Assembly: GCF_009674625.1 (NCBI RefSeq)
Contig: NZ_WKJQ01000001.1
Location: 2,232,001-2,296,000, forward strand
Direction of reading: 5' to 3'
Source of the DNA: Haloferax marinum
GTDB taxonomy: Archaea > Halobacteriota > Halobacteria > Halobacteriales > Haloferacaceae
DNA length: 64,000 nt
The number at the start of each line of letters is the position of its first letter. The first letter of the stretch is position 1. Shown here in pieces: positions 35,917 to 62,919 of this stretch. Made by a program: the position numbers and the translations under genes. The notes under the pieces are model-generated. The model saw nothing but the letters and a program-made list of their open reading frames with translations, was not told the origin of the DNA and searched no databases.

Positions 35917-35989
35917 GGGCCGGTGGGGTAGCTTGGTATCCTTCGGCCTTCGGGTGGCCGTAACCTCAGTTCGAATCTGAGCCGGCCCA
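35917..35989 (+). tRNA. tRNA-Pro (anticodon CGG)
   Basis: 73 nt. The acceptor stem GGGCCGG pairs fully with CCGGCCC at 35982-35988, and the discriminator base is A. The anticodon stem CGGCC/GGCCG encloses the loop TTCGGGT, giving anticodon CGG with G37. The T arm CTCAG-TTCGAAT-CTGAG is perfect. No CCA is encoded. A TATA-like GTTAAAC lies about 30 bp upstream. The GC drop and accessory genes begin right after it, so it is the likely integration point of the element to the right. Confidence 0.95.
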
Positions 35990-42525: not shown

Positions 42526-43647
42526 ATGAAAAAGTCAGGAACCCTGCTCGATTTCGCTAAGATTGACACGCTTTCAAAGCTGTCACAATACACCGAGCAG
42601 CGGGTACAACGTGAAGACGACCCTGTTAGAGCAATAACCTTCGTTTCAGAACGACCGCCCGTCGATGTTTTTGACGAATTTGACCCATCCGGTTTCCGCA
42701 TCGAACTCGAAGACCAAGGCGAGTTCATAACCGCTTCTCTCACCCGTCGGCTGAAGGGCCAAGGTGAGGAATACGACGATGACGGATATCGGTATGTAGA
42801 GGGTGAATTCTACCTCTTTGCACACGACAACTCTGACGTCTATACTGCATACACAATCTCAGACAGCGACTTCTACAACTACGGACTCAAGCGGTACCTC
42901 CAAGCCCTCCCACCAGAACTATCGTTGTCTTTCATGGATAGCGGCGACCTTCGGCGCCTGTTCGAAGCACTCGATGACAGTATTGATGGTCAACTCATCG
43001 CAACAAGGGCGGTCATCAAGTCTCCAGGTGCGAACACAGATGTTCGGTATTTCGACGACACTGATTACTTCGAGGTGTTCAACTCACCAGAAGTCGCTGA
43101 AGAAGATTACTACGTAGACAAGTTGGAGTTTGAAGTCAGGCAGTCATCTCGAGACTTCAGTGGACAAGTCTCTCGAAAGGCTGAGTCTCGCTTCGTGAAC
43201 GGCGAGAGCGCAATTTACTTCCAACTCTTGTTGGAGAACATTGCCTCACTTATTTCCGACAAGAGCGACCTATTTTCCAACCGATCACGTGAATACGGCT
43301 CCAGAGAGGCCGAACCAATACAAATCACTTACCGAGAAGGAGCAATCGAAGGGCGCGAAGAGAACTACCGGTTAATCCGTGCGCTGGACGGTCTGAGCAA
43401 ATCTTCGGTCACGGTCTATCACGACAACCCGTATATGCACGCCTCTGTCCTCGACTTCAACGATGGAACCACAGCAGATGTATTTCTAACCTCCGACAGC
43501 AATGTTTCCATTATCCCTGGGTTCAATGCCTCGCAGCGAGCCCTCTCCCGAATCACCGACCAGATTCTTGAGGGCTTCCGTGAAGGTGACCTCTCCGTTG
43601 GGCGTGGGTCTAAACGAGATTTTGACGACTACTTTTCAGAGGGGTAG
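42526..43647 (+). CDS. Unrecognised protein, first gene of a three-gene cassette
   Basis: 373 residues, acidic, with no membrane segment or signal peptide. It appears alpha/beta, with features such as AITFVSERPPVDVFDEFDPS, GEFYLFAHDNSDVYTAYTIS, a central KLEFEVRQSSRDFSGQVSRK, and a C-terminal GFNASQRALSRITDQILEGF. I recognise no family. The next gene starts 6 bp after its stop and a 4-TM gene follows, so the three are translated together. A cytoplasmic sensor or effector role in a defence cassette is inference from the architecture and its place in an island with other defence-type genes. Confidence 0.75.
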   Translation: MKKSGTLLDFAKIDTLSKLSQYTEQRVQREDDPVRAITFVSERPPVDVFDEFDPSGFRIELEDQGEFITASLTRRLKGQGEEYDDDGYRYVEGEFYLFAHDNSDVYTAYTISDSDFYNYGLKRYLQALPPELSLSFMDSGDLRRLFEALDDSIDGQLIATRAVIKSPGANTDVRYFDDTDYFEVFNSPEVAEEDYYVDKLEFEVRQSSRDFSGQVSRKAESRFVNGESAIYFQLLLENIASLISDKSDLFSNRSREYGSREAEPIQITYREGAIEGREENYRLIRALDGLSKSSVTVYHDNPYMHASVLDFNDGTTADVFLTSDSNVSIIPGFNASQRALSRITDQILEGFREGDLSVGRGSKRDFDDYFSEG

Positions 43648-43653
43648 ACACGC

Positions 43654-44808
43654 ATGGGTGAGGAGGAGTACCGAGAATGCGTTGACGCTACCTTCGAGAG
43701 CTTTCGAACCTACGATCAATATGTCGACGTCGTCTCCAGCTGGGAACACTTTCTCACCGAACAGTACGATACCAATGACACGTTCTATTTCGATCGTTTC
43801 CCGGCATATTTCCCATCTGATTCGGATACATCGTTAGAACCCAGTTTCTCGGCACTGTTCAACGAGGACTATGGAATCGTATTTGATGTAAACCAAAAGC
43901 TTCCATCAGTCGAATCCCAATTTGAAACCAGACTCAACGAGCTGGAGCAATACGACCAAGACTTGCAGTTCCGCACTGGAAACGGTGATCTGGTCACCCC
44001 TTCACAGCACGATATCGCGCTGTTAATTCACGGGGATAACTTCCAAACCGAGAAGCTCCGGATCAGGAATGCACTTGAGGATGGTGAGTTGGATGTGGAG
44101 TCGAATCTGGTGTTGTTGAGCTACCAGTACATCGATCAGGATACTAACCCAAAGTACCAGTTCCAGAGGGCCTCGATGGTCGGGGATAACTTCGGAGATG
44201 ACGCCCTACCCGACGCCCTTCAGATGAGTACTCGAATGTCGATGGAGGGGGGTACGTTTGAGAATATCAACATTCCGGCAGAGGTTTTCTACGACCGAAA
44301 GGCTACCGGGGTGTTGTTTAACACTGAGCCACCGTCACTGTATCTTGCGTGCTATGTCTGGCATACGGTGTTCTATGACCTCTTAGACGATGACCAAAGA
44401 ATTGTCTGGCAGCGAAGAGACCCGACTAAGACCCTCGACTTGGTCGTCGATGTTAGTGACCTTACAGAGCGTCTGAACCGGGACTACATCCCAGGCGGCG
44501 GTGTGCATGAAAAATGGGTAGACAATACGTTGGAGTACATGTGTGTTGCCGAAACTGCAGAGAAAATCTCCGATGGTGAGTACTACGTGAAGTTCCGGAA
44601 TCTACGAGACAAGCGTAGAGAGTACAATGACACGCTCAGCGACCGGAGTGAACACTCGGATTTAGCCCACCTCTTCGCTGAGTGGCACTGTGAGAATACA
44701 GTTGAGTTGGAGAATAGAGAACTGAATGAATTGGTGAAGGCAGATTCAGCGAACGGGCCCAATAAGCCTCGAGAAGACCTCACACAACCTGAACTCGGAG
44801 AGTTCTGA
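43654..44808 (+). CDS. Unrecognised protein, second gene of a three-gene cassette
   Basis: 384 residues, acidic and soluble. LEPSFSALFNEDYGIVFDVN followed by QKLP (residues about 60-85) resembles the Asp-X(n)-(D/E)XK strand pair of PD-(D/E)XK nucleases, but the second motif is DVNQK rather than ExK, so this is a weak lead only. The C-terminal third has a basic patch FRNLRDKRREY then a helical acidic tail. Starts 6 bp after the first gene and ends 5 bp before the third. Confidence 0.75.
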   Translation: MGEEEYRECVDATFESFRTYDQYVDVVSSWEHFLTEQYDTNDTFYFDRFPAYFPSDSDTSLEPSFSALFNEDYGIVFDVNQKLPSVESQFETRLNELEQYDQDLQFRTGNGDLVTPSQHDIALLIHGDNFQTEKLRIRNALEDGELDVESNLVLLSYQYIDQDTNPKYQFQRASMVGDNFGDDALPDALQMSTRMSMEGGTFENINIPAEVFYDRKATGVLFNTEPPSLYLACYVWHTVFYDLLDDDQRIVWQRRDPTKTLDLVVDVSDLTERLNRDYIPGGGVHEKWVDNTLEYMCVAETAEKISDGEYYVKFRNLRDKRREYNDTLSDRSEHSDLAHLFAEWHCENTVELENRELNELVKADSANGPNKPREDLTQPELGEF

Positions 44809-44813
44809 TACGA

Positions 44814-45470
44814 ATGGACGGTGATGCCCAAGTAGTGATTGAAAGGCGATTTTCTGCAAAGGAAGACTTGGCTGATCGGTATCAGGAGATGCTGGACAGT
44901 CAGTTGTCTGCAATTGAAAATTTCGACACAAAGGCTTGGAGGGCAGCACGGCTGGTTGGGATTCTACTGGGTGTACTTTTCACTGGTGTGTCGGTCTTCT
45001 CTTCAGAGGTTTCTGTGGAATTGACTGTAGAGTATCTCCCAGTAATCATAGCAGTAGGTTCTGGGGTTTCGGCACTGATTATTTCCCTCATCTTTGCTGC
45101 GTTGTGTATTCTAAGTACAACAGCTGGGTTCGGCCTCAGGGTGGAACTTGCAGATGCCCTCAACGAGGGTGAAGTCAATGAGGAGGACTATCCTGGGATT
45201 GTCACAAAGAGCTACTCAAAGAATATCGAGAACAACATCAAAGTAATGCGGGCAAAGGGGAGTCGGCTCCGATATGCTCTTTCTGCGCTGGTTGCTGGTA
45301 TTCTAATGCTTTCGACGGCAGGGATTTTTCTCTTCGTGACGCTTACGTATTGGACTCAGATTGGATTCTTGGTCGTTGTCGCGGCATTGATTGTGTGGAT
45401 CCTATACTACATCCTGACGATGCAGTATTCTGTGTTGGAGACTGAAGATGATGACACCGATGGAGACTGA
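44814..45470 (+). CDS. Four-TM protein, third gene of a three-gene cassette
   Basis: 218 residues. A cytoplasmic N-terminal helix of about 45 residues leads into a TM pair (LVGILLGVLFTGVSVFS; YLPVIIAVGSGVSALIISLI with following FAALCIL). A charged helical segment of about 60 residues and a second TM pair (YALSALVAGILMLSTAGIFL; IGFLVVVAALIVWILYYIL) follow, then an acidic tail. This two-pair layout resembles SLATT-like or KwaA-like membrane partners of antiviral cassettes, though no homology is claimed. It begins 5 bp after the second gene. Confidence 0.75.
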   Translation: MDGDAQVVIERRFSAKEDLADRYQEMLDSQLSAIENFDTKAWRAARLVGILLGVLFTGVSVFSSEVSVELTVEYLPVIIAVGSGVSALIISLIFAALCILSTTAGFGLRVELADALNEGEVNEEDYPGIVTKSYSKNIENNIKVMRAKGSRLRYALSALVAGILMLSTAGIFLFVTLTYWTQIGFLVVVAALIVWILYYILTMQYSVLETEDDDTDGD

Positions 45471-45586: not shown

Positions 45587-46357
45587 CTATTGTCGTAGTG
45601 TTTCTAAACCAGAAGGATATTCGACACTGTATTCTTCTGCATCGGTCAGATACGCTTCCCTTCGGGAGAGAATATTTGCGATGGTTCCTTGACCGATACC
45701 GGTCTCGTCTTCAATCTCGCGGTAGGTCGCGCCACCGTCACGAAGGGACAGAACACGGAGTGCTCGCCGAAAGTCGTCCCCAGGTACCTGTGCAGTCTTC
45801 GCATTGTTGTATGTGTAGCCGTACTTCGGTCGACCAAGGTCATCACCACGTTCTTTCTTCCGTTCGATAGCGCGGATGGCGTCCTCGATTTCTTGTTCTT
45901 TCTGCTTGCGAGCAATCAGGTGTTCAACGCTGCTGCCGACACTATCGACTTCGTTGTCGTCTTTCCACAGTACGAATTCAGCGTTACCGAATACGGTCGC
46001 TGCGCGTTTGATTTCGTTGAAGAAATCGTCGCGACTGATGCGATTCTTGTCTTTTCCAATGACGTACTGAAACTTGCCGGTCTTGAGCTCCGCGAGGAGT
46101 GTTTGGATGTCCCCGTTTTGGTCGAGGAGCTCGCCGTCGTACTCGTTTGGGTTGCGAGTGTATGTTGAGAACCCGGTGTGAATGCCGATGTCAATAATTT
46201 CCACTTGCGCTCCGGTGCCGAATAGGCCGATGCCGCTAGCGTGACAGTCAACGAGGGAGCAGGCAATTCGTGGGAGAACTTCTCGTTGTTCACGTAGGGA
46301 CTCCTTCGCACTGTCTCCCTGACTTGACCTAATGAGAACAACAGCACGTTCACTCAT
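45587..46357 (-). CDS. Serine recombinase (resolvase/invertase family)
   Basis: 256 residues from the ATG at 46357. The N-terminal catalytic domain begins RAVVLIRSSQGDSAKESLREQ with the nucleophile Ser in the RSS motif; the arginine region reads GKDKNRISRDDFFNEIK. After an acidic linker helix a C-terminal GRPKYGYTYNN and YREIEDETGIGQGTIANILS form the DNA-binding helix-turn-helix. It cuts and rejoins DNA at short sites, as resolvase, invertase or small-element integrase. Its start overlaps the AbrB-like gene by 8 bp. It is the only recombinase seen in the accessory region. Confidence 0.85.
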   Translation of the reverse strand: MSERAVVLIRSSQGDSAKESLREQREVLPRIACSLVDCHASGIGLFGTGAQVEIIDIGIHTGFSTYTRNPNEYDGELLDQNGDIQTLLAELKTGKFQYVIGKDKNRISRDDFFNEIKRAATVFGNAEFVLWKDDNEVDSVGSSVEHLIARKQKEQEIEDAIRAIERKKERGDDLGRPKYGYTYNNAKTAQVPGDDFRRALRVLSLRDGGATYREIEDETGIGQGTIANILSRREAYLTDAEEYSVEYPSGLETLRQ

Positions 46358-46553
46358 CGTCCTCACCGTTTTCGTCGCGTTCGACGAACTCCACTTCGAC
46401 CGCACCCGTATCCGGATTAACCGACCAGTGAATCTCCAAATTTTCCGCCGGAGGTGCACCTTTGATCATGCGTAGGGGTTGGGGGATGGTAGTAGCGACA
46501 CTGGACTGGCCGCGTGGCCATGCTTTCGTCTTGTATGTAATCCGTTCTGTCAT
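46350..46553 (-). CDS. Small AbrB/SpoVT-like protein
   Basis: 67 residues: a strand-rich start (ITYKTKAWPRGQSSVATTIP) followed by QPLRMIKGAPPAENLEIHWS and a final strand VEVEFVERDE. This is the swapped-hairpin AbrB/MazE pattern (strand, TIPxPLR helix, strand). It overlaps the recombinase start by 8 bp, so it may regulate that operon or be its accessory DNA-binding protein. Family assignment is moderate. Confidence 0.6.
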   Translation of the reverse strand: MTERITYKTKAWPRGQSSVATTIPQPLRMIKGAPPAENLEIHWSVNPDTGAVEVEFVERDENGEDDE

Positions 46554-48878: not shown

Positions 48879-49757
48879 TCAGCTCCAAGTGGTCGAATCA
48901 ATTTCTGCAACCGCTTTCTGGACGTGTCGTTCCGATACAGTACTCTCGCCTGTGAGAGACGCTTCGGCACCGGCTCGTAATAACAACTCCTGAGCACCAC
49001 GAGGTGTTGCGTTCCGTTCGACAGCGATTTTAGCACATAGTTCGAGAATTCCTTCACTTACAGCTCCGGATTTAAACGCAACTGCTGCCTTCTGCGTGAG
49101 AATTCTAGCCGTCTCTTCTTGCGAGTAGCAGTTGAGTTCTAGGTGTATCGGCCCACCATCAACAAAGCAGCCTGCCAGTTTTTCATACCGTTCCTTGTAC
49201 GAGAGAAAAGCCAGACCTAGAGGGGGTTCTGTCGCTTCATTTCGCAATGGGAGAAGAACTTCTCTGATAATACTCTCTACTGGTGCTGTGAGCGTAAACT
49301 CGTCTATGATAACGATAACTGGGGTAGAGAGCGTCTGGAGTCGTTCCTGGATTTTTCCTCGGACTACCTCCTCCGAAGGCTTGCAACGGAGGGAAGGGGC
49401 ATCGGTTGGGGAAGGCAGTTGATCGTCGAAACAACGACAGAGCAGGCGTAATGCGTTTCCACTCTTTGTCTGGTTCATCTGTTTGATCCAGACCGTCGAC
49501 ATCGTACTGTTACTGGTGTTCGGCTTTCGTTCCCACTCAAAGCAGTGTTTCGTGAGATAGGTTTTCCCACTCCCAGTAGGCCCAGAAAGGAAGACTACAG
49601 GTGGAACCTTTCCCTTCTCCAAGATGTCGACTACCGAACCAAGAGCGGAAAGTGCCGTTTGTTGGTTGATTGGTGCCTCATCTAACTTCTTCAAGCCTTT
49701 GAGTGCGGAATAGTCCTCAAATATTCGAGTATCCGGGATATCATCGAAGGGGGACAT
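48879..49757 (-). CDS. Orc1/Cdc6-like AAA+ ATPase without winged-helix domain
   Basis: 292 residues. Walker A GPTGSGKT is at 59-66 and Walker B VIIDE ends at 152; sensor-like positions and a helical lid (ATPRGAQELLLRAGAEASLT) follow. The order fits archaeal Orc1/Cdc6, but the usual C-terminal winged-helix domain of about 90 residues is absent, and the frame beyond the stop does not supply it. Orc proteins recognise origin recognition boxes and load MCM. It is divergent from an AT-rich region with two inverted ORB-like boxes, as at haloarchaeal origins. Confidence 0.75.
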   Translation of the reverse strand: MSPFDDIPDTRIFEDYSALKGLKKLDEAPINQQTALSALGSVVDILEKGKVPPVVFLSGPTGSGKTYLTKHCFEWERKPNTSNSTMSTVWIKQMNQTKSGNALRLLCRCFDDQLPSPTDAPSLRCKPSEEVVRGKIQERLQTLSTPVIVIIDEFTLTAPVESIIREVLLPLRNEATEPPLGLAFLSYKERYEKLAGCFVDGGPIHLELNCYSQEETARILTQKAAVAFKSGAVSEGILELCAKIAVERNATPRGAQELLLRAGAEASLTGESTVSERHVQKAVAEIDSTTWS

Positions 49758-50618: not shown

Positions 50619-53480
50619 ATGAGTTCATATCACTCTAATTATGTCCGGCCAGGTTCTGTGATTGAAAACCGGAACCGACTATGGAGGGTTGATCGGGTCG
50701 AGGGAGATGAAGTTGTTGCAACTGCCCTAGGTGGAACTGCAGCAGACACACACCGATTCTACTCACCCATCGAAAACATCTCCGAAGGTAGCCTTGAGCC
50801 ACCTAACCCGAGTAAAATTGGGAATCCACAGTACCAACGGCTTCTACTTCAAGCGCACCAGCTTTCGATGTTGCACGGAACTGCTCCCCTTGTAAGCCTT
50901 CAGCGCTCACGTGTGATACCTACTGAGTACCAACTCACCCCTGTGGTGATGGCACTGGATATGCCTCGTGTGAGAATGCTTCTAGCCGACGACGTCGGTC
51001 TGGGGAAAACGATTGAGGCAGGTCTCATCACCAGCGAGCTTCTTGCCCGGAATCGTGCGGAGCGAATCCTCATCATTACCCCGGCAAACCTTAGAGAACA
51101 GTGGAAAGACGCCTTCAACCACTTCTTCCACATCGACGCTCAAATCATCAGTACGCGTCACCGAAAGGCGATGGAAAAGGAGCTTCCCCCCGGAGCAAAT
51201 CCGTGGGAGCATCACTCGAAGCTAATCGCGAGTATTGACTATGCGAAACAGCCCTCTGTTCGGAACCAAATTCTCGAACAGGATTGGGATCTCTGCATCA
51301 TTGATGAGGCACACAATGCAGCGAAACCACACCAAACATCAGCCGACCAAACTGTCGACATGCAGCGATGGAACGTGGCTACCGATCTCGCAGACCATGC
51401 TAAACATCTTCTCCTGCTAACTGCTACTCCACATAACGGCTACTCTGACTCGTTTGCTAGCCTTCTCCGAATGTTGGACGTTGGGGCTGTTTCAGGCCCA
51501 CAACACGAACCGTATATCAACAGAGACGTAGCGAAGAAACACGTCGTTCAACGTCGCCGTGACGACGTCAAAGAGTGGTTCAAAGATGATGATCAGGAGA
51601 GTCCGTTCCCCGATCGAGACCAAGACGAGGTCTATGTCAGGCCAACCACCTACGAAAAGGAAGTTTTGGATGCAGTCCGAACCTACGGTGACACACTTCT
51701 TTCGACGGCTAGCTCGGGGTCGGCTCACGGTCAAACGCTGGCTCGCTGGTCGATTATCCACTTCCTCAAGCGGACACTCAGCAGCCCAGAAGCACTCCGA
51801 CGTTCGCTTTCCAACCGCCGAGAGAAGTTAGAAGAGCGGCTCGAAGAGGCTGAGGAAGACGTCATAGAAGAGGACGCAGGGATTACGGAAGAGGTTGCTC
51901 GTGCGAATGCCCTCGACAACGATACTGGTGAGCAGTACTCCGAAGATGAAGCTGGTCAACGAGTCGAGCGCGTTGTAACCGGGGACAAAACCGCAATCGA
52001 ACACGAACTGGAAGTTCTCGAAGAGGTTGCAGAGAAAGCGGAGAGAGTGACAAAAACTCGTGACAGCAAGCTCCAAGAGCTCTTGAAGAACACCCTCAGA
52101 AACCGCCTGAACACTGACCAGCGGGTCATCATCTTCACGAAATACACGGACACACTGGAGTATCTTGCCGACCAGATTGCAGAGAGTGGTCGATACGACG
52201 ACTGCGACCTGTTTACCCTACACGGGAAGCTCAGTGAAGGGCAGCGAAGAGACCGGTTCAGCGACTTCGAGAATTCTAACCGAGCCATCCTGGTCTCCAC
52301 GGACGTTATCTCGGAGGGGATGAACCTCCAACACGCGTGTAACCAAATCATCCACTACGAACTTCCTTGGAACCCGAACCGACTTGAGCAGCGGAACGGG
52401 CGTGTTGACCGCTACGGTCAGCCGAAGAATGTGGCTTACATTCGAACGATGGTGGTGGAGGATGAGATGGACGCGGCCATCCTCCAAACGCTGGTGAAGA
52501 AGGCAGAACAGATTCGTAGTGACTACGGATTCTCACCGCCGTACTTCGGCGACGACACTGGGGTTCTCTCCATCATCGAGGAGCAAGGACTCGACGTAGG
52601 AATCCCACAGACGACCTTGGATGAGTTCACCCAACAGACACCCGATCAGGGCAGCTCAAACGCATTCGACGAAGATACCCTCGAACGCATCAAGTCCGAT
52701 TCGTTCTACGGCCACACCGAGGTAAACCTCCAAGACGTTCGGGATCGTCTCCAAGAGACTCAGGAACGGATGGGTGGTGAAAACGGATTACAGCGATTCG
52801 TCCGGAGTTCACTGAACTTGTTTGGTTGTCCGATGGAGATGAATGCCGACTCGACATATAGTGTCACAGTCACGGATGACCGGTTGTTGTCTGGTGATGT
52901 AAAACGCGAGTACGAACAGGTGACGTTCGACGCCCGACATGCCGAAGAGCACCAAGGCGTCGAGATGCTGGACGTTGCTCATCCACTCGTCCAACGGCTC
53001 ATTGAGGTCTCCAAACAGACTGCGTTTACCGACGAAGATCGGAATGGGCGAACAGCAGCACAAGGGTCTGCTGAAGTGAATGAAGACACTGCAGTGTACA
53101 CGATTCTAGCCAGGTATGTCGCCCACACTGAGCCAGACCCAACCATCATGGAGGAACTTGTGGAGGTGGCGATTCCGCTATTCGGAGACGAACCACTCGA
53201 GATGTCCGAGATTGACACAATCACCGACAGTGAGGCCAAACCGGCGGGGCGTGCGGAGCAAGAAATCAAAGCAGATCTTCAAGACGCCCTCGACCACCCA
53301 CAACTTGAGGCGGCAATCGACGACCGGGTTTCAACCCGACAGTCCGAGATTGAGGCCGAACGCACATCGATGCGTGAGCGACTCGAATCGGTGAGCGACT
53401 CGGACTGGCTCGAAGGAATTGACGATGTAACCGTCGGCAGCACAGACCTGCTTGCCGTGACCCTCTACTACCCCAACTAA
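50619..53480 (+). CDS. SNF2-family helicase (DrmD-like)
   Basis: 953 residues. Motif I DDVGLGKT is at 124-131, DEAH at 229-232, motif III LLTATPHNGYSDSFASLLRM follows, and the C-terminal helicase half has FTKYTDTLEYLADQI and STDVISEGMNLQHACNQIIHYELPWNPNRLEQRNGRVDRYGQ. This is the SNF2-like family that includes DrmD of class 1 DISARM and helicases of other defence islands. An inserted acidic coiled region (about residues 410-470) separates the RecA lobes. It is the first of three overlapping or nearly touching genes (2 bp to the next). It likely translocates on DNA to help target recognition or methylation. Confidence 0.85.
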   Translation: MSSYHSNYVRPGSVIENRNRLWRVDRVEGDEVVATALGGTAADTHRFYSPIENISEGSLEPPNPSKIGNPQYQRLLLQAHQLSMLHGTAPLVSLQRSRVIPTEYQLTPVVMALDMPRVRMLLADDVGLGKTIEAGLITSELLARNRAERILIITPANLREQWKDAFNHFFHIDAQIISTRHRKAMEKELPPGANPWEHHSKLIASIDYAKQPSVRNQILEQDWDLCIIDEAHNAAKPHQTSADQTVDMQRWNVATDLADHAKHLLLLTATPHNGYSDSFASLLRMLDVGAVSGPQHEPYINRDVAKKHVVQRRRDDVKEWFKDDDQESPFPDRDQDEVYVRPTTYEKEVLDAVRTYGDTLLSTASSGSAHGQTLARWSIIHFLKRTLSSPEALRRSLSNRREKLEERLEEAEEDVIEEDAGITEEVARANALDNDTGEQYSEDEAGQRVERVVTGDKTAIEHELEVLEEVAEKAERVTKTRDSKLQELLKNTLRNRLNTDQRVIIFTKYTDTLEYLADQIAESGRYDDCDLFTLHGKLSEGQRRDRFSDFENSNRAILVSTDVISEGMNLQHACNQIIHYELPWNPNRLEQRNGRVDRYGQPKNVAYIRTMVVEDEMDAAILQTLVKKAEQIRSDYGFSPPYFGDDTGVLSIIEEQGLDVGIPQTTLDEFTQQTPDQGSSNAFDEDTLERIKSDSFYGHTEVNLQDVRDRLQETQERMGGENGLQRFVRSSLNLFGCPMEMNADSTYSVTVTDDRLLSGDVKREYEQVTFDARHAEEHQGVEMLDVAHPLVQRLIEVSKQTAFTDEDRNGRTAAQGSAEVNEDTAVYTILARYVAHTEPDPTIMEELVEVAIPLFGDEPLEMSEIDTITDSEAKPAGRAEQEIKADLQDALDHPQLEAAIDDRVSTRQSEIEAERTSMRERLESVSDSDWLEGIDDVTVGSTDLLAVTLYYPN

Positions 53481-53482
53481 CA

Positions 53483-56400
53483 ATGAGTAAATCAGAATCT
53501 GCGTCCGACTCGTCGACACCCGGAACCGACCCCACGTACATCCCGTCGAACGAGACCACGTCGTTCATCGAGACAAGCGGGGGACTCCTTACTGAACAGA
53601 CAATCCTTTCACTTCGTCAGGAGCGCTTCGATCACCCAGCAGCCAAGCCCGAGACGTTTGCTCTTCCGGGAGAGGAGCCACCGACACAAAACGAGCTTGA
53701 GGAGCGTATCGCCCTAATTTGGGAGGATCTCGTCGAGCGCTGGGACGAACTCACCCAGAAAGGCCGCCTGTTTGAGATGGATATCTCTGAGGCACGGTCG
53801 AAGTGGATTCTCAAGCTGTTCCAGGCACTCGACTTCGAGCCGGTCTACCAGCGCTCCAATATCGAAGTGGAGGGACTGAGTTTCGATCTCTCGCACAAGG
53901 GATGGCCAGACGACGAGATTGCGGACTACGGAAACATGGGTGGTGCACGGGCACCGATTCTCCACACCATCGAACCGGAAAGCGAGCGTGACCTCGATAG
54001 AGAGAACAAGCTCGACCGGAAACCGGAGGGTGCAGGACGTGGTGCTTCGAGCCCACACGATACGCTCCAGAGCTTCCTCAACGCTAGTAAGAAACACAAT
54101 TGGGGAATCGTCACAGACGGCGTCACCCTCCGAGTGCTTCGTGACTACTACCACACGTACACGCGCGGGTACGTCGAGTTCGACCTGGAGAACATCTTCA
54201 CGTCGCGGAATTACCAGGACTTCCGTGCGCTCTACCGTCTCTGTCATCCGTCCCGGTTCCTTCCACGGAACAAAGATGCACTGGACAAGCCGCTCGAAGA
54301 GGTTCTGAAGGACGACCGAGACGGGACAGAGGAGGACGAAGAAGCAGAGATATCGACGCCACTGGAGATGCTCTACCAGACGAGCCTCTCGACCGGCGTC
54401 AAGGTTGGTCAAGACCTCCAGTCGAACGTCATCAGCGCGCTTGAGACACTCGGCAATGGGCTACTGAACCCAGAGATTCGGGAGTTCCTGCGCGAAGGTG
54501 GCGAAGAAGAGGCCCAAGAGTACTACCAGGAACTGTTGATGATTATCTACCGGCTCTTGTTCCTCCTCTACGCCGAGCAGCGGGGCATGATGCCGGGGCG
54601 AGACAGCCTCTATACCGACGAATACAGTGTCACTAAGCTCCGGCAGCGGGCTGAGAAACGTCGGTCGCAAGCAGACAACAATACCGACCTCTGGCACGGT
54701 CTGCAAGCAACGTTCAAGCTTGCCGAGGAAGGCAACAAGGAGTTGGGTGTTCCAGCCTACAACGGGATGCTGTTCGACTCCGAGAAGCTGAACCTCATCT
54801 CGGAGAGTGAATGTGCCAACAAGGCACTCCTCAGCGCAATTTCAGACCTCACTCTCATCGAGCACGATGGTGTCCTCCAGCGCATTTCGTACGCCGACCT
54901 CGGTGTCGAAGAGGTTGGTTCCATCTACGAGAGCCTGCTTGAGTTCACGCCGCGGCTAGCGGAGGAGAAACTGGAAATCGAGGGCGAGACAGTCCACTCA
55001 GGCGACTTCTACCTCGACTCCCGAGGGATGGAGCGCAAAGAGACCGGGAGCTACTACACAGACCCGAAGCTCGTCCAGGAACTCATCAAGAGCGCACTCG
55101 AACCGGTGGTAAACGATCGGCTAGCAAAAGCCGACGATACGAAGGAAGCACAGGAAGCTGCCCTCCTCGATATCGACGTCGTCGACCCTGCGTGTGGGAG
55201 TGCTGCGTTCCTCATCGCGGCGACGAACTATCTCGGTCGGCGTCTTGCAGAAATTCGAGAGGGGATGGAGTACCCGCTCGAAGACGACGTCCGAGATGCT
55301 CGCCGCTCCGTACTCCAGCACTGTATCTATGGTGTAGACCTCAACCCAATGGCAGTCGAACTGGCTAAGGTTAGTCTGTGGATCGACTCTGCGGTTAAGG
55401 ACAAGCCGTTGAACTTCCTCGACCACCACATTAAGTGTGGGAACTCACTTCTTGGAACAAGCTCAAAACTAATTGAAAACGGACTCCCTCACGATGCATA
55501 TGAAACCACTCAAGGTAGGGAGTGGTACGATGGTAATGGCCTTCGAAAACGAGTCCGGAACGAAAATAGTGAACGTACTCAGACAATTCTTGGTGAATAT
55601 GCTGGTGGCACTAAGCCCGAGTATATTGATGTCGCCAAAAAGATAAATGAGGTTAATGAACTGAACTCCGAAGATATTCGCGAAAAGCAAAATCTGTACC
55701 GAGATCTCCGAGACAGTGATGTTTTCAAACGTGAAAAATTGGCATACGATGTTTGGACAGCCGCATTCTTCTGGCCCGTTACCCGGTCTGTAAACGAGTT
55801 CCCAACACCAAAAACAATCGACAGAATTCGTCGCGGAGGTGCTAATGGTGAGTCAGACTTTGAAGAGGTAATTAGTCGCACAAAACGTATTGCAGCAAGG
55901 CAAAATTTCTTCCACTGGGAACTTGAGTTCCCAGCAGTCTATGCCGATGGTGGGTTTGATTGTATAATCGGAAACCCTCCTTGGGAAACTTTTGAAGTTA
56001 AAGATAAAGAGTTCTTTGCAGTCGAAGCACCAGAGATAGCAAATTCGAGTACGAAATCAGAGCGAAAGAAGCTGATTGAAGAACTTGAATTTGAAAACCC
56101 AGAGCTCTATCAGAGATATCACACAGCAGTCCGTGACATGGATCGTACTAACCGATTTGTTCGTGAGAGTGGACGGTTCCCCCTCACAGCGGTTGGGCAC
56201 ATAAACACGTATGGCCTTTTTGCTGAACATGCGATCAATAATGTTAATGAAGAAGGGTATTCGGGGTCAATTGTTCCAACTGGAATCGCTACAGATTCCA
56301 ATATGCAGGATTTCTTCCGAAGAATCATTAAAAATAACTCTCTCGTTTCATTATACGACTTTCAGAATACGGAGGGCATATTTGAAAATGTGACCACAAA

Positions 56401-57571
56401 TTACAGGTTCTGCTTGCTGACATTGGCAGGGGAGTTCGTTGATATTGATGAGTTTGAACTGGCTTTCGAATTGACCAATGTAGACCAGTTGAATGATGTT
56501 GAAAGAAAATTTGATTTATCAGAAGACGAAATTGAACTAATCAACCCAAATACAAAGACTTGCCCAGTATTTAGGTCTCGGAAAGATGCAGAACTCACTA
56601 TTGATATCTATGAGCATTCTGGGGCACTCAAACAAACAACAGGTTCCAATTCATGGGACATAAACATACGACGAATGTTTAATATGTCTGATGATTCTGG
56701 GGAATTCGTCACTCGCAAACAATTGATTAGTCAAGGCTGTCAACAAGATGGAAATCAATTCTACGACGAGGAGTCTCGTTTCCTACCAATCTATGAGTCT
56801 AAGATGATGCATCAATACGATCACCGTCATGCGTCATTTGAGTACGTATCAGATATCGACAATGGCAGTCCTGAAAGGCTTTCTGTGGAAGAAAAAAATA
56901 ATCCATCACAATTAGCGTTTCCTCGATACTGGATGGATTCAGACACTTACGAAAATAAAGAGATGGGCGATTGGCACATCATATTACGGAATATTGCCCG
57001 CGCTACAGACGAGCATACAATCATTGGGACGATTATCCCGAACTACCCAACCGTTCACTCAGTAAATCATATTGAAGGAACAAACCCTGAAGATGGGGCG
57101 CTCTTGTTGGCATGCTTAAATTCATTTGTTCTAAATTATGTTGCTAAACAGAAAATTAGCGGAATGAATATCAGCCATTACATTTTACGTCAACTTCCAG
57201 TTCCAACCCCAGATCAGTTTGAGGAATTTGATATCGGAAACGAATCTGCGAGTGAGGTTGTACAAAACTTGGTTTTACAACTTATTTACACTGCTGAAGA
57301 TTTAGCCGAGTTCGCAGCAGAAATTGGGGGTGCTAAAAAACCATATCAGTTTGACGGTGAAGAGCGCACAAGAGAATCTATTAGATTTGAACTTGAAGCG
57401 ATTCTCTTACACATCTACGGAGTAAGCGAATCTCAAATTGAGACCGTGTTTGACCGTTTCGACCAGACAAAAAAGAATGATATCCAAAAGTATGGGGAGT
57501 ACAGGACTCAAAACAAAATCTTGGAAAAATACAGAGACTTGGAAGACCGGGTTAGTGGAGGGAGAAAGTGA
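53483..57571 (+). CDS. Large N6-adenine DNA methyltransferase (DrmMI/PglX-like)
   Basis: 1362 residues. The N-terminal 500 residues are a helical/nuclease-like domain as in type IIG and PglX proteins. [20 protein letters not shown] precedes SAM motif I DPACGSA (about 569), and the catalytic NPPW is near 830 ([13 protein letters not shown]). The C-terminal part should contain target recognition ([10 protein letters not shown] is typical of this group). It modifies host DNA to protect it in a DISARM-like system. From about 55445 to the end the base composition turns AT-rich while the reading frame is intact, so the catalytic/specificity half may have been swapped in. It overlaps the next start by one base. 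Confidence 0.85.
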
Positions 57572-60500
57572 TGTCCCGAATGAATCCCTTCGAGGCTCTC
57601 GACGACATCCAGCAGTCGTACCGATCCTACGTCGAGACGTTCCAGCAGTTCGAAAACGAGACCATCGAAGAATGGGTAACACGACGAATCGACCGAGGTT
57701 CGGTGCTGTGGAAGGAACCATTCGTTCAGCTCAACCAACGATTCGAGGAGGGAACGCCGCTCAAGTCCTTCGTCGACGACGGTGTGCTCCACGAAGGCGT
57801 CCTTGACGTCTTCACTGGCGGCGACGGCGAGCCGATTCAACCGTACAAGCACCAGTCCGAAGCGATTCGGTCGGTGACCGATGGCAACAACACCATCGTT
57901 GCAACCGGCACGGGGTCAGGGAAGAGTTTCGCCTTCGGAATGCCCATCATCAGCCACTGTCTCGACGCTCGTGACCGCGGCGAGGACGGCATCAAGGCGG
58001 TCATCATCTACCCGATGAACGCACTGGCGAACTCGCAATACGAGGACTTCGCCGAACGTCTCGATGGGTCTGGCCTTCGGCTAGCGTTGTACACTGGTGA
58101 TACTCCGTACAAACCGGACGAAGGGCGAGAGTTTATAAAGCAAAGCATGGGCAGAGATATCCCATATGACTGTGAAGTGCTCTCCCGCGAGGAAATTCGT
58201 GAGGATCCACCGGATATCCTCATGACCAACTACGCCATGCTGGAGCTCATCCTCACCCGACTTGAGGATAAGCAGCTCTTTCCGAAAGACCACAAAGGTG
58301 TCCTTCAGTACCTCGTCCTCGACGAGGTTCACACCTACACTGGAAAGCAAGGGGCTGACGTCGCCTCACTCATTCGTCGACTCAAGCAACACACCGGAAC
58401 CATCGGCGATATAGATTGTATCGGTACCAGTGCTACCGTCCAGAGCGGCGAGGGTATCGACGCCGAGGAAGAGATTGCTGACTTCGCGGAGAAGCTGTTC
58501 GGCGAGTCTGTCTCTCAAAGTAACGTCATCGGTGAGTCTCACTATTCGCTCCCGTTCACAGAGGGTGAATCGCTACCGAACCGTGTGCAGATAAAGAATG
58601 AAGATGTCGAAGAATTCGACGGTTCGATTTCTTCTGCTGCAGCGCTGGCTGAAAAGCTCCTCGACCGTGAGTTGACACGGAAAGAGCGTGAGGACGAAGA
58701 TGCGCTCGGTGATGCACTTGCAGGCCACCCAACCGTCAAGTTCCTCCAAGATGCGCTGAATGAGGAAAGCCAGCCTGTTCGAAGCACAGGTGACGAAGAC
58801 GATGACGATCTTGTAGACCAGTATCGTCGCGAGCATCGTAGTGCATCGCCTCCACGGGCATGTGAGCGCGAGCTGCAAGCCACTCTCCTAGCCGGAACAA
58901 TTGGAACGATTGACGTTCAAGGCGAGCGCCAGCCAATCTTCGTCCCAAAGCTCCATTCATTCTTCAGCCAGGGCTCCGAGTTGGTTGCCTGCATAACTGA
59001 AGACACATTCGAGGATGCAGGGTCTCACCTGAGTACTGCTGGCGATCTCGAGTGCCAGCACTGTTCTCGGTTCCATGGGAACGAACGGTCTGCGTTCCCG
59101 CTCCTGTTTTGCCGATCTTGTGGTCAGGAATACTACAGCGTCCTGATCACAGAGGATGGTGAACTGGTTCAGAAGGAAATAAACGAAGCACCAAGCGACG
59201 ACGAACCTACCAGCGGTTGGTACCTGAGCCCAGATGGTTGGGATAGCGAAGAGACGCCAATCCCCGACGACTGGATTACGGATACAGGAGACATCAGAGA
59301 CCGATACCGAGAGGCGGAGCCGGTTTCAGCAACCTACTGTCCCGAGCACAACGCACTCACATTTGGTGTACAAGATGACCAAGGAATGCTTGACTGCGGT
59401 TGTTTCGCAGTTCAAGGTATCCAAGTAACCGCGTCTAAGGCACCATTCCTGTTCTGCTCGAACTGTGGTGTCCACTACGACCGACGGCCAAGTGAGTTCA
59501 ACAAGCTATTCACCTTCGGCTCTGTTGGTCGTTCGACTGCAACAGACATCCTCGTCGAAGGCAACCTCCGAAACCTGCCCTACGAAAAACGGGATGGTGA
59601 GGTTGTTGTCGACGAACGAAAGGTCATTGCGTTCTCGGACAACCGTCAAGACACCGCGTTGCAAGCGGCTCACCTCAATAACCTGTATCAACGGGTTCAC
59701 TTCCGCAGAGCACTGTACCACTCGCTTGTCGAAGGAGACAAATTCCGCAGCAGTGGCGAACCACTATCGTTGGCTGATGCTGGAACGAGTATCTTTGATA
59801 CGATGGCTGAGTTCGATGCATTACCCCAATATGCTGTGACTGAGAGTAAGTTCGGGCCTAGCCGAGCAGCCCAAACTCAATACAGCAACTATCTGTTGTT
59901 CAACACGATTCTCGAACTGGGGTCGAGCCAGCAACGAACTCAGCAAAACCTCGAGGACACAGCACTCATCGACGTCGAATACGAGTTCCTTGACCAATTA
60001 GCAGACCTCGAAGAGGCCTGGGAACACATTCCGCAACTGAGTAGGTTATCGGCTGAGGAGCGTGAAGATTACCTCAAAGGTTTCCTCGACATATTCCGTC
60101 GTGAACTCGCGGTCGACCACGATAGTGTACTTCAATACTGGGACTTTGAGCGGAATACCATCGAGAAGATTCGAGAAGAGGCCCAGTTCCATGGTGGAAT
60201 CCGATTCCGATTCCCTGTAGGGTACAGTGATACTGCGTCTAACGACTCCTGGAAAGCGCGTGTGCACAGGATGACGAGCCCACGTTCGCGCCATCTCATG
60301 TGGACTAAGCGAACGCTCAATGTTGACCGAGAGGTCGCTGAAGAGGTTGTGAACAAGACAAAGAACGTTCTCAGCCAACCAGACTACGGGGAGCTTCTGC
60401 GGGAAGAGAGCGTCAAAGACGTGGGGAATCTGCTGATGCTGAACCATCGGCTCATGCAGATTGTTCCAGCAGACTCTGACGAGGTCAGCTACTGTCCAAA

Positions 60501-62919
60501 ATGTGACTCACCTACAACCCGCCAACACATCTCGTTGTGTACCAGAACAGGCTGCGGTCAACTTAAACCAGAGTCGAGAGATATCACGGACTCGTACTTC
60601 CACAAACTCTACACAGAGCCTTTCGAGACCGCTGTCAACGTTCTCGCAGGAGAACACAGCGGCCAAGTAGACGGTGACAAACGGAAAGAGATCGAGAACC
60701 GGTTCCGTGAGGGTGATGATATGAACGTCATCGTCTGCACACCAACGATGGAGCTTGGTATCGACATCGGGGCGTTGTCCAGTGTCTATATGCGCAACGT
60801 TCCTCCGAGCCCCAGTAATTACGCCCAACGAGCTGGTCGTGCTGGGCGAAAAAACCAGGCCTCGATAATTACCACGTTCTGTGGGAGTGGGTACGGTCGT
60901 GGGTCACACGACCAGTATTTCTACCAGCATCCAGAGCGAATCATCGCTGGTAAAATCAGTCCGCCAAAGTTCTTGATGAACAACGAGGATCTCCTACGAT
61001 CCCACATCAACTCGCTGGTTCTCGAGACGATTGACATCAAACTGCAAAATGAGATTGGGGCATTCCTCGACCTTGACGAGGACAAAGATGGGCGATACCC
61101 CCTCGTCGAAGACTTCAGAGAAGAAATCGAAACCAAGGTAGAGGACGGTCGAAACCGGATTATCGCTGCTGTCAAAGAAGCGTTCAAACAGGAGATAGAA
61201 GATGATGAGATCGGTGAGTGGCTGACGGATGAGTTTATCGAACAACAGGTCGATTCGTTCGTTGAGAGTTTCGACCGGGCCTTCGACGCGTGGCGAACAG
61301 AATACGATAGACTCACCGAAGAACGCCGAAGTCTGAACAGGGACATCGGTCGTGGTGACGGTGGAAAAGACAAGTACCGTCGACGTACGACAGTGGAGGC
61401 CAGGCTTGACGACATGCGATCCGGTAAGAAGAGTTTCTACACATACCGGTACCTTGGTTCGCAAGGCTTCCTGCCGAATTACGCGTTCCCGCGTTCGAAC
61501 TCGACGCTAACATTCCAGACACTCGAAGACGACATTGAGCGAGACAAAGTTCTCGCACTTCGTGAATTCGCTCCGGGTAATACGGTATACTTCGGTGGTG
61601 AGCGCTTCCAGATTCAGTACGCACGGCCTCGAACTGAAGACGCACAGCCAGTAACACAACAAATGCGAGTCTGTGATGAGTGCGAGACGATTCTCATGGG
61701 CTCGAAGGCTGAAACCGCCGCAGCGTGCCCGAACTGTGAGCATTCATTCGAGGAGACCCATCCGAAGATGAATGCGATGGAGTTCCCCGACCAATTCTCC
61801 ATCCCACGCGGGAACATCACAAGCGATGAAGAGGAGCGCATTCGCAGAGGGTACGACATCAACCCATACTACGAAATGACCGCGGATGCACGTCGATACA
61901 CCTTCGGCCCAGACAACAGTACTTCCCTGACATACGAAGGAAATGCGAAAATTGTCGTGGTGAACAGCGGCCCAAGGAACCAATCCGAGGATAGTAGTAT
62001 AGATGGGTTCGCGCTTTGTCCTGACTGTAATAAGTGGCTACTGAGTGATAACGCTGTAGAAAAGCACACCGAAGACGACGGAAAGCGTGCGTGCAAGAAC
62101 AATGTGGCCCCTGAAGATATCCTACGTGACGTGGAACTCTACTCAGACGGGAACCACGACACGGTAACGGTGACAACTCCTGTTACTGAGGGCATTGAGA
62201 ATGTTGAGTCATTCTACCGGACGTTAAAGGAAGCGTTGTACCAAGGAATCCTCGTAGAGTTCGATCTCGACGCACAAGAGCTTGACTCGTTCTTGAAGCC
62301 TGCTGCTGATGGCAGCGGAGAGTACACGATTGTATTCTACGAGACGAGCGAGGGAGGGGCAGGGGCACTCCATGCTCTCGTCGATGAGGCCAGACTAAGA
62401 CGAGTCATTCACGAAGCGAAGGAAATAATCCATGGTGACAGTGACACCGGGTGTGAGAAGGCCTGTTATGAGTGTCTCATGACCTTCTACAACCAGCGTG
62501 AACATGCATTATTGAACCGGTCACTCATCCAACCATGGCTTGATGAAATGAGCGAAATCACGCTGTCTGAGAGCGAAAGCGACGGTTCGATGGAGGCTGA
62601 ATTTGAGGAATTGGAAAAGCAATGTGAGTCAAGCTTCGAGAAGGACGTACTAGCCGAAATTCGAAAGCGAGGCTACAGGCTCCCCTCTGAAGCACAAAAG
62701 ACGATTTACGATGGTGACGAGCCAGTCGCTGAAGCAGACTTCTACTATGAGTTGGAACCGCAGCCTCTGCTTGTGTTCGTTGATGGCGACCCACACGAGC
62801 TAGATCATATTATTCGAGATGACCGAGAGAAGCGACGAAGACTTCGGAAACTAGGCTACCGTATCGTGCCGATTTCAGATATTGATCAAGTCAAAGACCT
62901 CGGTGATGCACTGAATTGA
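57571..62919 (+). CDS. Helicase-DUF1998-nuclease fusion (DrmA-DrmB-like)
   Basis: 1782 residues from the ATG at 57571, which shares one base with the methylase stop. Order: a helicase core with GTGSGKS (about 113) and DEVH (about 251); Cys-rich inserts (CQHCSRF..CRSCG near 490, FCSNCG near 630, YCPKCD near 970); [14 protein letters not shown] near 690; a helicase C-terminal lobe ending [11 protein letters not shown] (about 1090); zinc motifs CDECE and CPNCE near 1370; a DUF1998 region with CEKACYEC near 1627; and a C-terminal domain with [15 protein letters not shown] resembling Vsr/DUF559 nucleases. In DISARM, DrmA (helicase) and DrmB (DUF1998) are separate subunits of one complex, and DrmC is a PLD nuclease. 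MrfA-like repair helicases are an alternative relative. Confidence 0.85.

Follow-up and report, generated by a model that had tools for sequence, protein, structure and literature searches.

A probable archaeal ARMADA Type I operon on a tRNA-Pro island of Haloferax marinum and the apparent block exchange of the C-terminal half of its methyltransferase ArmB

Introduction

The window analysed here, a stretch of 64,000 nucleotides from Haloferax marinum (assembly GCF_009674625.1, contig NZ_WKJQ01000001.1, positions 2,232,001 to 2,296,000), carries three adjoining genes on the forward strand, in the order armA-armB-armC (Table 1), which very probably form an archaeal ARMADA Type I antiviral system, carried by an island integrated at a tRNA-Pro gene, in which ArmB would set the motif that is marked and ArmC would cut DNA left unmarked. 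The domains, the conserved motifs, the linkage of the genes, the exchange of a block of ArmB and the island are directly supported by the sequences compared below, and the exchange of ArmB cassettes is the part of the result worth following.

A recent preprint (Bell et al., 2025; PMC12458937) defines ARMADA in its main text by three proteins: a helicase like BrxHII, a methyltransferase like PglX, and a YprA-like helicase that ends in a nuclease of Vsr type. According to the same text, Type I includes archaea, many of which have the armA-armB-armC order that is found here. The term itself appears 103 times in that text, and twice and once in the accessible text of PMC13192584 and PMC12904381, respectively.

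Structure and distribution of the operon

The first-pass annotation of this DNA had described a compact operon encoding a SNF2 helicase, a large adenine methyltransferase and a helicase/DUF1998 protein, and the open reading frames (ORFs), their strand and their domains bear this out. Pfam assigns SNF2-related and Helicase_C domains to the first gene, Eco57I/N6-MTase domains to the second, and DEAD, Helicase_C and MZB (that is, DUF1998) domains to the third; ArmB has the S-adenosylmethionine (SAM) motif DPACGS at residue 568 and the motif NPPW at residue 831. The junctions given at the time are also correct: armA and armB are separated by 2 bp, and armB and armC overlap by 1 bp if armC starts at the ATG at 57571. 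This start is favoured over the upstream GTG because the armC homologue of Natrinema is annotated at 1782 amino acids (aa), with the same 1-bp overlap.

The PADLOC profiles (judged from the best 25 matches of each list) place the first gene with DrmD/BrxHII, and the second with DrmMI and the type IIG methyltransferases. The proposed comparison with defence-system profiles agrees with the DISARM reading of the first-pass annotation for these two genes, whose best profiles are DrmD and DrmMI, and departs from it for the third, which is DruE-like. Against the NCBI model of DrmD, the first gene reaches 492.7 bits and stays under the cut-off of 610. The BrxHII-like, PglX-like and YprA-like genes that make up the trio of ARMADA Type I are all found in this one operon.

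In a search of the family with ArmC, 7 of 170 genomes gave a match at E<=1e-30, five of them full length, the window included. In a sample of the class, matches at E<=1e-15 were found in 87 of 391 genomes, and in 14 of the 391 (again with the window) the match spans 1392 residues or more with an identity of no less than 55%, the locus of G308 being cut by a contig end. The survey of haloarchaeal genomes proposed earlier finds the trio again: in all 14 of the other full-length loci examined, armC is preceded by armA and armB, with order and strand as in the window. Twelve of these loci come from the class search (that of Natribaculum was read from a plasmid record and taken as the same genome as G256), one is G165 of the family search, and one is Natrinema. 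As in the window, armB and armC abut within 51 bp in four of these loci, and an insert of 0.3 to 5.4 kb separates them in the other ten. Culturable haloarchaea with the operon include Natrinema gelatinilyticum and Haloquadratum walsbyi C23. In G165 armB is split into three ORFs, and in G425 it is doubled, with armA seen in part at the edge of the stretch.

Some of the related loci have features of their own. Paralogues of the TATA-binding protein (TBP) are encoded between armB and armC in four of the eight haloarchaeal inserts looked at (Table 1); in the main text of PMC12458937, TBP genes are named in connection with TALON and TOTE but not with ARMADA. The armB gene lies in three pieces in Deinococcus radiodurans MP1 (L028:17946-22975), where an IS630 element precedes the last piece, as well as in G165 (L019:4489-11073). 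G294 (L079:1977-15813) has a divergent trio in the same order, with an ArmC-like protein of 1790 aa (approximately 27% identity), an ArmB-like protein of 1515 aa and an ArmA-like protein of 1092 aa. On the plasmid pNOCA01 of Nocardioides sp. JS614 (L029/L083), annotated DISARM genes adjoin an ARMADA-like operon, in which the order is armC-armA-armB, followed by genes for an AAA ATPase and a McrC-family protein. Finally, L080:7022-18032 and L081:5225-16203 contain tandem pairs of YprA-like genes of approximately 1820-1840 aa, which are probably BRIGADE, and similar paired matches occur in many genomes of the class sample.

Table 1. Features of the armABC operon, its island attachment site and TBP paralogue inserts of related loci
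Feature	Position	Strand	Basis
armA: SNF2/BrxHII/DrmD-like helicase, 953 aa	50619..53480	+	Pfam and PADLOC profiles
armB: PglX/DrmMI-like adenine methyltransferase, 1362 aa	53483..57571	+	profiles, motifs
armB exchanged block (apparent), residues ~661-1362, G+C 0.41	55463..57568	+	identity drop, G+C
armC: YprA-family helicase-nuclease (nuclease predicted), 1783 aa from GTG (57568) or 1782 aa from ATG (57571)	57568..62919	+	
armC DEAD (RecA1), residues 94-292	57847..58443	+	Pfam match
armC Helicase_C (RecA2) match, residues 1024-1095	60637..60852	+	Pfam match
armC MZB/DUF1998 zinc-binding match, residues 1553-1637	62224..62478	+	Pfam match
armC C-terminal Vsr/MTES_1575-like nuclease domain (predicted), residues 1690-1774	62635..62889	+	sub-cut-off Pfam match, conserved residues
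tRNA-Pro (CGG), island attachment site	35917..35989	+	tRNA call, repeat of 3' end
TBP paralogue inserts	L018:7588-9540 (three ORFs); L071:11682-12242 (one); L072:10486-11469 (two); L074:7000-7542 (one)		

The large protein ArmC

The third gene had been read as a fusion of the DrmA and DrmB proteins of DISARM, and this reading does not hold. The best PADLOC profiles of ArmC are those of DruE (E 3.1e-136); the DrmA profile scores much lower, at E 2.5e-16 and for residues 1033-1119 only. Among the best 25 of the 26 NCBI-model matches of ArmC there is none to DrmA or DrmB. The Nocardioides plasmid, with annotated drmA and drmB genes plus a second, ARMADA-like YprA operon, served as a head-to-head control: in blastp, ArmC matches the ARMADA-like helicase with 611 bits and gives no match at E<=10 to DrmA, to DrmB or to both joined end to end. 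According to the main text of PMC12458937, proteins of the YprA family typically have the helicase and DUF1998 on one chain, and DISARM is a branch in which they are consistently split. The supposed fusion is the usual one-chain form, and therefore it says no more about the contacts between DrmA and DrmB than other YprA proteins do, contrary to what had been hoped.

The first-pass annotation was right in setting the protein apart from stand-alone repair helicases of the MrfA/YprA type. The YprA protein of H. marinum itself (908 aa) aligns to ArmC over residues 41-305 and 1039-1147 only; this partial alignment and the conserved operon rule out a stand-alone MrfA/YprA (approximately 750-900 aa). 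The gene for that protein, the only other YprA gene of the genome, is located on a different contig, and the operon holds a single YprA gene. In a profile search of the PDB, the closest solved structures are 9tu7 (a DEAD/DEAH helicase of 2108 aa, which is probably Druantia DruE), 9wae and then MrfA (6znp).

A quick tree of 27 of the 34 helicases collected, in which the program warns that the placement of the long branches is unsure, groups the ArmC of the window first with the other haloarchaeal proteins (8 rows); Longimonas, two members of the Chloroflexota and one of the Clostridiaceae come next (12 rows), followed by Thermus, Chroococcidiopsis, Deinococcus and two members of the Actinomycetota (17 rows; support of 99 in the Shimodaira-Hasegawa-like approximate likelihood ratio test, SH-aLRT). 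The ARMADA Type II protein of E. coli, Druantia III, DISARM, the tandem YprA pairs and the host's own YprA fall outside this clade, several of them on long branches. The profiles of DruE, the lack of a DrmA or DrmB match in blastp and the tree agree in placing the protein nearest the Druantia/ARMADA branch, as in ARMADA Type I.

The Walker A and B and helicase motifs are conserved in an alignment of 16 rows (the window being one of them), and of the eight CxxC motifs three are kept in every row and the others in 10 to 15. In the C-terminal domain, which went unremarked in the first-pass annotation, the E, D, D-G, H and D residues do not vary across the 16 rows, and a PDB profile search with this domain gives 3r3p at E 0.0017. 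These residues and matches indicate that ArmC ends in a predicted Vsr/PD-(D/E)xK-like nuclease domain, which we count as a shared feature of ARMADA Type I.

Exchange of the C-terminal half of ArmB

When the DNA of the window is compared with that of Natrinema in steps of 300 bp, the identity is 0.74-0.84 over armA and the first half of armB, drops to 0.52-0.61 at approximately 55.5 kb, remains at this level until armB ends, and returns to 0.78-0.85 where armC starts. The G+C content changes as well, from 0.57 in the first part of armB to 0.41 in the block. The same pattern is seen in the proteins, compared as ArmA, ArmB residues 1-660 (ArmB-N), ArmB from residue 661 to the end (ArmB-C) and ArmC. 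The four identities are, in this order, 0.885, 0.870, 0.392 and 0.877 between the window and Natrinema; 0.929, 0.913, 0.402 and 0.918 between G112 and Haloquadratum; 0.817, 0.663, 0.409 and 0.825 between G137 and Natribaculum; and, in the clearest pair (G112 and G231), 0.979, 0.952, 0.461 and 0.971.

Thirteen complete trios, which give 78 pairs, were compared in this way: the window, G098, G112 and G137 (family search), the plasmid records of Natrinema and Natribaculum, and seven from the class search. Over these pairs, the identity of ArmA correlates with that of ArmC at 0.97, with that of ArmB-N at 0.82 and with that of ArmB-C at 0.26. The loci left out were L019/G165 (armB in three ORFs), L078/G308 (contig end), L079/G294 (26-34% identity), the fragments G072 and G008, and L076/G425, whose two armB genes were compared with each other only. 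Taken together, these comparisons indicate that the C-terminal half of archaeal ArmB is, as far as can be read from sequence, exchanged as a block. Two sub-blocks were looked for in the archaeal armB and were not resolved, and a search of the genome with the ArmB protein, which would have revealed a second armB or a silent cassette, gave, besides ArmB itself, three short matches to the methyltransferase core.

Two further loci can be mentioned in relation to armB. The tandem, full armB genes of G425 (L076:9988-17990) are 72% identical in the N part and 46% in the C part, and in G277 (L074:11546-11884) an ORF of 112 aa that resembles the C-terminus of ArmB adjoins armB. Both arrangements could possibly be steps of a cassette change.

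The corresponding region was also analysed in ARMADA Type II of E. coli, whose armABC genes are present in 520 of 5426 complete genomes (in 513 of these the match covers 80% or more of the query). Ten alleles were aligned, that of ATCC 8739 and nine picked by hand from the 60 matches listed. In steps of 250 bp, the alleles have a pairwise diversity of 0.005-0.016 in armA, 0.006-0.064 in armC and 0.24-0.48 in codons ~1047-1463 of armB. In bins of 100 bp, this block consists of two reassorting segments, codons ~1080-1310 and 1310-1480: ATCC 8739 and L036 are 51-83% identical in the first and 98-100% in the second; ATCC 8739 matches L037 at 100% from the start of the first to approximately codon 1210 (at 82-91% after that), and at 39-79% across the second; L036 has the first segment in common with L039, L040 and L041 (93-100%), and most of the second differs; L037 and L041 have the second in common (99-100%), and the first differs (51-79%). 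The armB of ATCC 8739 and L037 thus differs between alleles that are close in armA and armC; L036 is recorded as a pseudogene. Over at least 80% of the probe, the first segment of ATCC 8739 is found in 18 genomes (383 with any match), and the second in seven. Reassorting segments are the pattern expected of the recognition half-domains of Type I restriction specificity subunits, in which the recognition region is exchangeable.

Proposed role of ArmB

Since the ArmB block is swapped in haloarchaea, and is hypervariable and reassorting in E. coli, ArmB is probably the swappable specificity subunit of a system that resembles restriction-modification, and the pattern suggests that the swapped half decides which DNA counts as self. 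ArmB would mark a sequence motif of the host genome, set by its C-terminal half; ArmB, acting with ArmA and ArmC, would recognise the motif where it is unmarked; and the recognised DNA would be processed by two motors, ArmA and ArmC, and cut by the ArmC nuclease. Methylation, recognition of the motif by the swapped half, formation of a complex, cleavage and defence against viruses are the steps that we infer. Marking and attack would thus both take their specificity from a single subunit, ArmB, just as in BREX they do from PglX, which the accessible text of PMC11341690 presents as the sole specificity factor of BREX for marking and defence. In relatives, the motif would change when recombination brings a different C-terminal half into armB, with armA and armC being kept.

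If it is the block that sets the motif, the two helicases have to suit any motif, because swaps would otherwise put marking and attack out of step. Helicases that work with any motif imply, in turn, that ArmB probably recruits or licenses them. A wider reading, which we consider probable, is that ARMADA is a specificity-switching system resembling restriction-modification: the ArmB cassettes alone would set the DNA that is marked or attacked, the motors would be indifferent to sequence, and immunity would be changed by swapping a cassette or by a tandem armB. The cassettes would be two reassorting segments in E. coli Type II and one long C-terminal block in archaeal Type I.

The text consulted in PMC12458937 does not state how ARMADA separates self from foreign DNA, and the exchange of half of one gene between operons whose helicases are up to 98% identical points to ArmB as the only specificity component. 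Alleles of E. coli and of haloarchaea that differ mainly in the block are natural experiments, in which the methylated motif and the range of phages can be compared.

The tRNA-Pro island

The operon is located on an island of low G+C of approximately 35 kb, also unremarked in the first-pass annotation, that begins in the 3' end of the tRNA-Pro gene; the low G+C runs on to ~75 kb. The tRNA end (from 35968/35969) recurs exactly beyond the window, at what would be its positions 70752 (23 nt) and 70885 (26 nt); a gene for a tyrosine integrase (69433-70455) lies next to these repeats. The flanking stretches are 38.9 kb apart in H. marinum and 0.9-2.3 kb apart in 10 of the 14 other congeners (G023, G024, G027, G029, G030, G031, G033, G034, G035 and G036). 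The distance is 8.0 kb in G028; G025 and G032 have no usable match to the right flank, and in G026 the flanks are on different contigs.

Other genes of the island include three co-directional genes (42526-45467), none with a Pfam family above the cut-off; PADLOC gives a weak PycTM match for the third (E 3.4e-5) and NsnC for the first (E 0.0042), and the trio is possibly another defence unit. On the minus strand there are genes for a Cdc6-like AAA+ ATPase (48882-49757) and for a protein with a weak DNA-invertase match (45590-46459), likely parts of a mobile element.

Alternative explanations

Several observations weigh against the interpretation of the operon as an ARMADA Type I system in which ArmB switches specificity. 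The MTES_1575 match of the ArmC C-terminal domain (E 0.0018) is below the Pfam cut-off, and its PDB profile match to Vsr itself has an E of 0.72. The BrxA-like insert that ARMADA has after RecA1 is not confirmed in ArmC: residues 280-500 are modelled as partly helical (mean predicted local distance difference test, pLDDT, 71.6), the fold searches gave no significant match, and BrxA is absent from the matches of the search made for this insert. The helicase tree held no row labelled Type I by Bell et al., who name WP_108720193.1 as a reference of that type. The main text of PMC12458937 reports that an E. coli ArmB mutant of the SAM motif loses protection in part only, for which a simple marking role is insufficient. 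A PDB profile search with ArmB residues 490-1362 gave no match at E<=0.001, and a model of these residues (mean pLDDT 43.8, from five sequences) was left unused and yields no target recognition domain fold for the swapped half. There is also an unswapped pair, Natribaculum and L073, which keeps 0.857 in ArmB-C. In favour of divergence of the C-terminal half of ArmB in place, by fast drift or relaxed constraint, the start of the block differs between pairs (approximately residue 665 or 800), and none of the 12 other trios offers a near donor for the block of the window (best identity 0.466). Nevertheless, identity drops abruptly and recovers at armC, pairs that are 97-98% identical elsewhere have 46% in the block, and each of the two E. 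coli segments is shared at 99-100% by some pairs but at 39-60% by others; the abrupt fall and the reassortment make drift a poor fit, already contradicted for E. coli, and we regard it as quite unlikely.

It is unlikely, if less so than the other alternatives, that the main task of the operon is defence against plasmids or DNA repair and not defence against viruses: relatives are often found on plasmids, and MrfA/YprA relatives act in repair, but E. coli Type II blocks phages (both from the main text of PMC12458937), and the patchy distribution in the class sample and the cassette exchange fit defence better. A Class 1 DISARM with DrmA and DrmB fused and DrmC lost would account for the order of the genes and for the best profiles of the first two, but it is very unlikely, given a DruE-like ArmC that has no blast match to true DrmA or DrmB and has a nuclease-like domain of its own, and a first gene under the DrmD cut-off. 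What stands of the archaeal DISARM variant proposed by the first-pass annotation is a DISARM-related, three-gene operon of defence type; DISARM itself gives way to ARMADA Type I. Least likely of all is BRIGADE, an ARMADA-like helicase linked to 7-deazaguanine DNA modification and confined to halophilic archaea. The host group and the helicase would suit it, but the 20 island ORFs scanned include no deazaguanine or PLD gene, there is one YprA gene here instead of the usual two, and the tandem YprA pairs of other haloarchaea fall outside the clade of the window in the tree.

Comparison with known systems

Judged by its sequence features, the operon probably belongs to the ARMADA kind already described. 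Another name for it was sought in a 2026 survey of BREX (PMC12839542), whose accessible text makes no mention of YprA, DISARM or DUF1998 and in which Type-1 BR is a DUF499-centred set. DISARM Class 1 shares the DrmD-like helicase and DrmMI-like methyltransferase profiles, and differs in having separate DrmA and DrmB plus DrmC; here there is one chain in which neither is recognisable and, as noted in the first-pass annotation, no DrmC follows, the 10 ORFs scanned downstream of 62919 (small ORFs left out) having no PLD domain. Druantia III provides, in DruE, the best profile family for ArmC and likewise a helicase-nuclease, but its partners are different and it falls outside the clade of the window. 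BREX PglX and the Type I restriction specificity subunits resemble ArmB, as proposed here, in that one exchangeable recognition region sets both marking and attack (for PglX, accessible text of PMC11341690). BREX differs in that no other component of it was found among the ORFs scanned here, where the putative effector is a YprA helicase-nuclease.

ARMADA Type II (E. coli ATCC 8739) shares the armA-armB-armC order and the hypervariable ArmB block, and differs in ArmD, a GajB-like helicase fused to a RelE-like domain, encoded after armC and in its helicase, which is 22-38% identical over parts. No UvrD-type ORF (ArmD) appears among the ORFs listed and scanned after 62919, and Type II was ruled out for the operon, the linked GajB-like gene having no match among the ORFs scanned. 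Anti-phage activity is, in the main text of PMC12458937, published for Type II only: in E. coli all four genes are required, an ArmB NPPW mutant loses protection, and the defence is non-abortive and blocks phages. As for the exchange of the ArmB block, it was not found reported in literature searches on ARMADA or in a term search of PMC12458937. In the operon itself no difference from ARMADA Type I in its archaeal order, as that text describes it, is apparent: the same kinds of genes, the one-chain YprA protein with a C-terminal domain of predicted Vsr type, the order of the genes and the tRNA-linked mobile island are common to both.

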